Source: Thermoflexales bacterium
Lineage (GTDB): Bacteria; Chloroflexota; Anaerolineae; J036; Brachytrichaceae
NCBI GenBank assembly: GCA_019694215.1
Contig: JAIBCK010000011.1
Coordinates: 1-51,264, forward strand
Length of the DNA stretch: 51,264 nucleotides
Direction: 5' to 3'
Shown here: piece after piece, positions 47,050 through 48,933 of the stretch
How the letters are laid out: every line of letters starts with the position of its first letter
Position numbering within the stretch: the first letter of the stretch is position 1
Made by a program: the position numbers and the translations under genes
Notes under the pieces: model-generated
The model's database searches: none
What the model saw: only the letters and a program-made list of their open reading frames with translations
What the model was told of the DNA's origin: nothing

Positions 47050-48255
47050 ATGAACAGCTACAACGAGGCCAACGCAAGGAACCAGGGTGCGAACCCGACA
47101 CCGTCGGGACCCTCGTACGCCAGCCACGCCGAGTCACCGGCACAGATCAAGGTGATTGGTGTGGGAGGCGGCGGGCAGAACGCCGTCAACCGCATGATTG
47201 CCGAGAGCATGCAGGGCATCGACTTTGTGGCGGTCAACACCGACCAGCAGGCCCTCATGCTGAGCAATGCGCCTGTGCGCATCCGGCTGGGGGACAAGGC
47301 GACACGCGGTCTTGGTGCGGGGGGCAATCCGAGCCAGGGTGAGAAGGCGGCCGAGGAGTCGGCGGATGAGATCTTCAGCGTCATCAAGGGCGCAGACATG
47401 GTCTTTATCACCGCAGGCATGGGAGGCGGCACCGGCACGGGTGCGGCACCCGTGATTGCCCGCATCGCCAAGGAGCAGGGCTCTCTGACCATCGGCGTCG
47501 TCACCCGTCCGTTTTCCTTCGAGGGCACGCCGCGCCAGCGCGCTGCCGAGGCCGGGATCGAACGGCTGAAGGAGCACGTTGACACCCTGATCGTCATCCC
47601 CAATGACCGCCTGCTCGACATCGTCGACAAGCGCGCCAGCCTCGCGCAATCCTTCCGCGTCGCCGACGATGTGCTTCGTCAGGGTATCCAGGGCATCAGC
47701 GAGGTGATCACGACCCCCGGTTTGATCAACCTCGACTTCGCCGATGTTCGCGCCATCATGAGCGAGGGTGGGGCGGCGCTAATGGCCGTCGGCACCGCCT
47801 CCGGTGAAGGCCGCGCCCGTGCTGCCGCCGAGCAGGCGATCACGTCGAACCTGCTCGATGTCACCATCGACGGCGCGCATGGCATCCTGTTCAACGTCAC
47901 CGGCGGCCCGGACCTCGCGCTACACGAGGTGAACGAGGCCGCCATGCTCATTCGCTCGGCGGCGCACCCAGACTGCAATGTCATCTTCGGCGCTGTGATC
48001 GACGAGAACATGAAGGACACGGTTCGCATCACCGTGATCGCGACCGGCTTCGAGCACACGGCCGGGACGACGCGGCGCATCACGCGCCCGTCCTCGACGC
48101 GCGAGCGCGAAACCGTGGCACGCAGCACATCGACGTTCCGGACGACGCCGGCGCCCGTGACGCGTGACGAGGGAATCTCACCCGCGCCCGCATCGCAGAC
48201 GACCTACGACCCCGAGGATCTCGAAGTGCCGTCTTTCCTGCGCAATCGCCGTTAG
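47050..48255 (+). CDS. ftsZ: Cell division GTPase FtsZ
   Basis: 401 residues. Tubulin homolog that forms the division ring. A polar N-terminal extension of about 32 residues precedes [17 protein letters not shown]; the GTP-binding GGGTGTG is at 125-131; the synergy loop is [12 protein letters not shown] short linker leads to the C-terminal peptide [12 protein letters not shown], which binds FtsA. GAGGG lies just before the start. It has its own promoter and closes the dcw cluster. Confidence 0.97.
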
Positions 48256-48362: not shown

Positions 48363-48391
48363 TTGACAAGGGGCCCTGTGCTTCATAGAAT
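48363..48391 (+). promoter_or_regulatory. nrdR-nrdJ promoter
   Basis: Consensus TTGACA (48363-48368), an ideal 17-nt spacer and TAGAAT (48386-48391). The start would be near 48398, giving a leader of about 80 nt before nrdR. The stretch between the ftsZ stop and this promoter shows no clear terminator. Confidence 0.82.
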
Positions 48392-48414
48392 CACCGTCCC
48401 ATCCGCCCCATATG

Positions 48415-48440
48415 TTGGGTCGAACGTATGTTCGCCCCAA
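48415..48440. promoter_or_regulatory. LexA-type (SOS) operator
   Basis: CGAACGTATGTTCG at 48421-48434 fits the Gram-positive LexA/DinR core CGAAC-N4-GTTYG. It lies inside a longer imperfect palindrome with flanks TTGGG and CCCAA (48415-48440), about 20-40 nt after the predicted transcription start, where binding would block elongation or initiation. It could alternatively fold as an RNA hairpin. Confidence 0.65.
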
Positions 48441-48480
48441 TAGATGGGCCGATGGCCATCGTTATGTCAACCGAGCGTCC

Positions 48481-48933
48481 ATGAAATGCCCGCAGTGCGG
48501 ATCCACCGAAACACACGTCATCGACACCGTCCGCGAAGCCAGTGGAAACATCCGACGCCGGCGCGCCTGCAAGGCGTGCGAGCGTCGCTTCAGTACCCTC
48601 GAGCGTGTGGTCGATGTCGCGCCGCTCGTGGTCAAGCGCGGCGGGCGGCGCGAACCCTTCAACCGGGACAAAATCCTGGAAGGGCTGCGGATCGCGTGCG
48701 CGAAGCGGCCCGTGCCAGCCTCGGACATCGAGCGGCTGGCGGACCAGATCGAGGCTCAGGTCATTGGCCTGGGCAAACCTGAGGTCTCGGCGCGTGATGT
48801 GGGGGATATCACGTTGCGGGGCCTGCGTGGGCTGGATGAAGTCGCCTACATCCGCTACGCCATCGTCTACCTAAACCTGAAGGATCTCGAGAGCGTCAAG
48901 GGAGAGATCGAGAAGCTTCTTGGCGAGCGTTAG
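48481..48933 (+). CDS. nrdR: Transcriptional repressor NrdR
   Basis: 150 residues. NrdR senses ATP/dATP and represses ribonucleotide reductase genes. It has a zinc ribbon (Cys3, Cys6, Cys30, Cys33), then the ATP-cone from about residue 46 (VVKRGGRREPFNRDKILEGL). The start MKCPQCGS is the family norm; the open frame reaches back to 48412 but would run through the operator. nrdJ begins 40 nt downstream, so NrdR probably controls its own operon. No canonical NrdR box pair was recognised. Confidence 0.95.
   Translation: MKCPQCGSTETHVIDTVREASGNIRRRRACKACERRFSTLERVVDVAPLVVKRGGRREPFNRDKILEGLRIACAKRPVPASDIERLADQIEAQVIGLGKPEVSARDVGDITLRGLRGLDEVAYIRYAIVYLNLKDLESVKGEIEKLLGER

Follow-up and report, generated by a model that had tools for sequence, protein, structure and literature searches.

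A putative LexA operator lies between two predicted NrdR boxes at the nrdR-nrdJ promoter of a Thermoflexales bacterium

The window analyzed here, the whole 51,264-nucleotide stretch of contig JAIBCK010000011.1 from the Thermoflexales bacterium assembly GCA_019694215.1 (3.4 Mb in 184 contigs), ends in an nrdR-nrdJ operon preceded by ftsZ (47050-48255). The promoter and operator region is located between ftsZ and nrdR, and the features of the locus are the following.

48363..48391, + strand: sigma-70-type promoter of nrdR-nrdJ, TTGACA-17-TAGAAT, 11/12 consensus match
48406..48419, no strand assigned: predicted, degenerate NrdR box 1, CCCCATATGTTGGG, located with a position weight matrix (PWM)
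48421..48434, no strand assigned: putative LexA operator CGAACGTATGTTCG (core GAAC-N4-GTTC at 48422-48433), motif shared with the genome's own lexA and recA
48436..48449, no strand assigned: predicted, degenerate NrdR box 2, CCCAATAGATGGGC, located with the PWM, 30 bp centre to centre from box 1
48481..48933, + strand: nrdR, NrdR repressor of 150 aa (Zn ribbon and ATP cone), TIGR00244 above cut-off, PF22811 and PF03477
48977..51264, + strand, running past the end of the window: nrdJ, class II (B12-dependent) ribonucleotide reductase, TIGR02504 above cut-off

The promoter is made up of TTGACA (48363-48368), a 17-bp spacer and TAGAAT (48386-48391). As the original prediction had stated, it is close to consensus: a match of 11/12 sigma-70 positions was found once, against 0.1 expected from shuffled sequences, and many relatives have a similar promoter at the same place upstream of nrdR. 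Transcription of nrdR-nrdJ would start at about 48398. The nrdR product resembles solved NrdR chains and has the Zn ribbon, the RRRR motif and the ATP cone, with valine rather than arginine at residue 17 (D15-T16-V17-R18). The S. coelicolor NrdR has D15 and R17 at its specificity positions (PMC9110341), and across the family of the window these residues are mostly D15-T16-[V/I/A/T]17-[R/K]18. An in-frame ATG at 48412 was considered as the nrdR start and rejected in favour of the ATG at 48481, because NrdR homologues start near MKCPxC, which is found at 48481. The nrdJ gene is the only PF02867 (ribonucleotide reductase large subunit) gene detected in the genome, which is 96% complete, and a search of the same genome for a class III reductase gene (PF13597) found none. 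In several relatives nrdJ is interrupted after about residue 191 (L014, 2028-3449; L016, 1995-3449; also L013, L020, L021 and L027). Since the L014 interruption matches LAGLIDADG and intein-splicing domains, these interruptions are likely to be inteins.

The putative LexA operator is centred at 48427.5, 30 bp 3' of the -10 element and at about +24 to +37 from the presumed start. It sits within a 26-bp imperfect palindrome, TTGGGTCGAACGTATGTTCGCCCCAA, at 48415-48440, in agreement with the original prediction. The motif by itself is unremarkable, since GAACNNNNGTTC occurs once in the 51-kb window against 0.7 expected.

LexA control presupposes a lexA gene and a motif shared with the promoters of lexA and recA. 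The genome has a single lexA (TIGR00498 above cut-off, with the helix-turn-helix domain PF01726 and the S24 peptidase domain PF00717 also above their cut-offs), and its own lexA promoter, TTGACAATAGAACGCATGTTCGATTACAAT, carries the box between -35 and -10. The recA promoter, TATAATGCGAATAGAACAGACGTTCTA, also contains GAAC-N4-GTTC, so that neither gene bears a different motif. In the family the perfect motif is present in 25/25 lexA orthologues and in 23/24 recA loci, the exception (L177) being a shortened locus. Among the 34 matches in the genome, high-scoring sites directly precede uvrC, uvrB, an imuA-like gene, two FtsK-type genes and a repair radical-SAM gene of the TIGR03916 type, which together form a textbook SOS set. 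Given the sites at lexA and recA and the SOS-type genes behind high-scoring matches, it is very likely that GAAC-N4-GTTC serves as the LexA box in this genome. The evidence for the regulon is the identity of the genes behind the sites, which were drawn from pattern matches and chosen stretches of the genome, and not the number of sites: raw motif counts, whether in the genome (34 against 25) or family-wide, are too little enriched to prove a regulon. A search with the longer pattern CGAAC-N4-GTTCG gave 6 places in the genome against 4 for the reversed control and was not informative, since the actual motif of the family mostly reads TAGAAC-N4-GTTC. Scored with a PWM built from the lexA and recA sites of the family, the window site reaches 18.5 bits, within the training range of 16.1-25.8, and judged by its sequence it holds as a predicted LexA box.

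A few high-scoring sites precede genes with no obvious SOS role, such as nitrilase-like, ABC ATPase and metal-dependent hydrolase-like genes. Three of the best LexA-box scores of the genome (G000:C74:10103, G000:C60:18002 and G000:C68:21971, loci L134, L130 and L132) lie before a gene for a protein without NCBIfam match, a nitrilase-like gene and an ABC-transporter ATPase gene, respectively, and these are possibly unusual SOS genes. Upstream of lexA, locus L007 contains repeated GC-rich units at 900-1375, for example gccgtccgcggtcagcggtc.

The original prediction had reported that the usual pair of NrdR boxes was not seen. A degenerate pair is nevertheless present at 48406-48419 and 48436-48449: with a PWM trained on genera other than that of the window it scores about 21-22 bits, and 0 of 3000 shuffles were as good. 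Most relatives carry two copies of approximately CGCCATATATGGCG upstream of nrdR, 30-31 bp apart; the 30-bp spacing of the window is also found in the g3 relatives and the others have 31. The ends of this family box are GC-richer than those of the usual NrdR box. A spacing of about 30-31 bp is known for NrdR box pairs (PMC9110341, PMC12051234), 30 bp being the short edge of NrdR tolerance (PMC12051234). The centre of the LexA site, 48427.5, is the exact midpoint of the pair, 15 bp (1.5 turns) from either box centre. The LexA box abuts both NrdR boxes, and the 26-bp palindrome is made up of the LexA box and, on either side, the inner half of an NrdR box. It is thus the placement of the core at the midpoint of the NrdR pair, and not its mere presence, that is remarkable. 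The earlier notion of two layers of dNTP control fits more literally than was claimed, since the NrdR boxes flank the LexA site. We consider it likely that the locus carries a composite operator, in which a LexA dimer site would occupy the spacer of two NrdR boxes within the first ~50 transcribed bp of nrdR-nrdJ.

The arrangement recurs in relatives of the window. In the sister genome L011 the spacer, GCGAACATGTGTTCTG, keeps 8/8 core bases, and L018 of genus g6 has a perfect core, GAACAAACGTTC; in both, the N4 and the flanks differ. Sites with one mismatch are found in other members of g6 and in g3 (GAGCAAATGTTC or GATCAAATGTTC) and in g4 (GAAAATTTGTTC). The sites of L011, L018, g6, g3 and g4 all fall within 0.5 bp of the midpoint of the NrdR pair. 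In L018 the NrdR boxes are unrecognisable, and the arms around its perfect core (~45 bp) are still complementary through different bases. Genus g2 has no LexA site before nrdR and a perfect one between nrdR and nrdJ in 4/4 genomes; in L033 this site runs directly into TATAAT, and in both L024 and L033 it is followed by a class II reductase gene. Overall, a perfect site occurs near nrdR in 7/24 loci against 0.13 expected from shuffles, a count that kinship reduces to fewer independent events, yet genera g1, g2 and g6 differ in the sequence or the place of the site. Across 396 genomes of the class, a pattern with an ATG start and a fixed gap range gave nrdR-linked sites only in this family; matches in G225 and G251 were judged from their letters to be due to chance. 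Among nrdR upstream regions from many phyla the perfect core was present in 2/79 (the sister genome and Adlercreutzia), with no general enrichment. Several observations weigh against the composite operator: the degeneracy and short spacing of the NrdR boxes in the window, the single mismatch in most g3 and g6 relatives, and the lack of a LexA site in g7 and g8.

The NrdR pair could be real and the GAAC-N4-GTTC in its spacer a coincidence, or bound by another factor. The LexA site upstream of nrdR is absent in genera g7 and g8, where five loci (L012, L019, L026, L028 and L029) have another conserved spacer, GGGCTATGCGAAA, between the NrdR boxes in its place, which indicates that spacers can hold other motifs; in addition, in most g3 and g6 loci the mismatch is confined to one half-site, which is thus imperfect. 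A perfect core at a given position is nevertheless expected by chance at only about 1e-5 per base (34 occurrences in 3.4 Mb), and the core recurs in L011 and L018, while g2 has perfect LexA boxes before nrdJ. We regard coincidence as quite improbable.

The main rival to the composite operator arises from the same symmetry: the conserved element would be an RNA hairpin in the nrdR 5' UTR, acting on translation or transcript stability, with the LexA-like core as the apical stem-loop. The region does fold as a long hairpin (z-score -2.75), and GAGC in place of GAAC preserves a G-U pair. The arms also pair better within than between sequences (-19.4 against -16.7 kcal/mol, 45/5000 permutations, mainly due to L018), although most of the complementarity follows from the presence of two copies of one palindromic box, and L011 pairs worse with itself than with other sequences. 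Furthermore, the GATC and GAAA variants disrupt the stem, and in lexA the same core is untranscribed because of its location between -35 and -10. A search of the 5' UTR against Rfam for a riboswitch or leader RNA gave nothing at the gathering score, and no Rfam family fits. These results make the hairpin improbable, if a shade less so than coincidence.

Another alternative is that in this genus control of the operon has passed from NrdR to LexA, which would now be the sole regulator, the NrdR boxes being decaying relics of this handover. Of 21 NrdR pair scores, the lowest three (window, 21.0 bits; L011, 17.3 bits; L018, -15.4 bits) belong to exactly those loci in which a perfect LexA site stands between the boxes, and this coincidence of perfect inter-box LexA sites with the weakest NrdR pairs suggests a partial handover. 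The observation comes from two independent lineages only, however; the NrdR pair of the window still beats 3000/3000 shuffles, and nrdR itself is intact and conserved. A complete loss of NrdR control appears unlikely, though it is the least improbable of the three alternatives.

According to the composite operator model, LexA bound to the central box would, as long as the DNA is undamaged, stop RNA polymerase at promoter escape or early in elongation, as its position suggests. NrdR tetramers loaded with dATP/ATP bind two boxes about three helical turns apart and kink the DNA by near 90 degrees at each (PMC9110341), and when dATP is plentiful they would likewise repress by kinking the DNA at the outer boxes. 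One of the two repressors would be enough to block the early transcribed region, LexA being removed by damage and NrdR by low dATP. Upon DNA damage, active RecA would lead to LexA self-cleavage and to the joint induction of nrdJ, supplying dNTPs for repair, and of nrdR, which would re-set NrdR repression once dATP recovers. With the LexA box adjoining an NrdR box on each side and NrdR bending DNA sharply, the two repressors probably exclude each other on this operator. Given its perfect LexA site and weak NrdR boxes, the genus of the window probably has LexA as the stronger layer. More tentatively, one symmetric operator may serve two unrelated, mutually exclusive repressors, a LexA dimer bound in the spacer keeping the DNA unbendable by the NrdR tetramer; NrdR- and LexA-dominated forms may have switched at least 2 times in the family, and a third genus may have reached SOS control through a separate LexA box before nrdJ.

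The site resembles the operators of the genome's own lexA, recA, uvrB and uvrC and belongs by its motif to LexA (SOS) regulons with the Gram-positive-type box GAAC-N4-GTTC; it differs from these in its target, a ribonucleotide reductase operon, and in its location within the operator of a second repressor. In the S. coelicolor nrdRJ operon nrdR also comes before nrdJ, and a pair of NrdR boxes separated by about three helical turns lies close to the start site (PMC9110341). The boxes of the window differ in being degenerate, in their spacing of 30 instead of 31 bp and in having a putative LexA box between them; the S. coelicolor paper makes no mention of LexA (PMC9110341). The main text of the paper on the S. 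venezuelae LexA regulon does not name nrdR, and our literature search, which covered few subscription papers, did not turn up any description of a LexA site within an NrdR operator. Five actinobacterial loci (L082, L108, L110, L111 and L117) have lexA on the opposite strand upstream of nrdR, and in L082 the nrdR gene is also preceded by two perfect LexA sites. That link is one of gene neighbourhood; in the Thermoflexales genome, by contrast, lexA is located away from nrdR, and the putative LexA site is part of the NrdR operator itself. Given this neighbourhood, and since nrdR of Corynebacterium glutamicum is presumably co-transcribed with the LexA-controlled gene divS, links between LexA and nrdR are not wholly new.

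A precedent that speaks against LexA binding comes from V. cholerae, where the nrdA promoter contains a LexA-like sequence to which LexA did not bind in a gel shift assay (PMC5963079). That sequence, CTGTATATATATACAG, could be an NrdR-type AT palindrome, whereas in the window separate LexA and NrdR motifs lie next to each other. As predicted for the operon of the window, the nrdAB genes of E. coli and V. cholerae are induced by damage, but reportedly not via LexA, the V. cholerae gel shift being negative (PMC5963079). Here, unlike in those bacteria, the only detected ribonucleotide reductase catalytic gene appears, together with the gene for its repressor, to be under direct SOS control, so that the supply of dNTPs would be coupled directly to the SOS response. 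The locus would thus represent a compact case of a single promoter that responds both to dNTP levels and to DNA damage, and also a case of operator turnover between two repressors. Compared with these systems, the nrdR-nrdJ arrangement appears to be a variant of known regulation that is well supported in silico.
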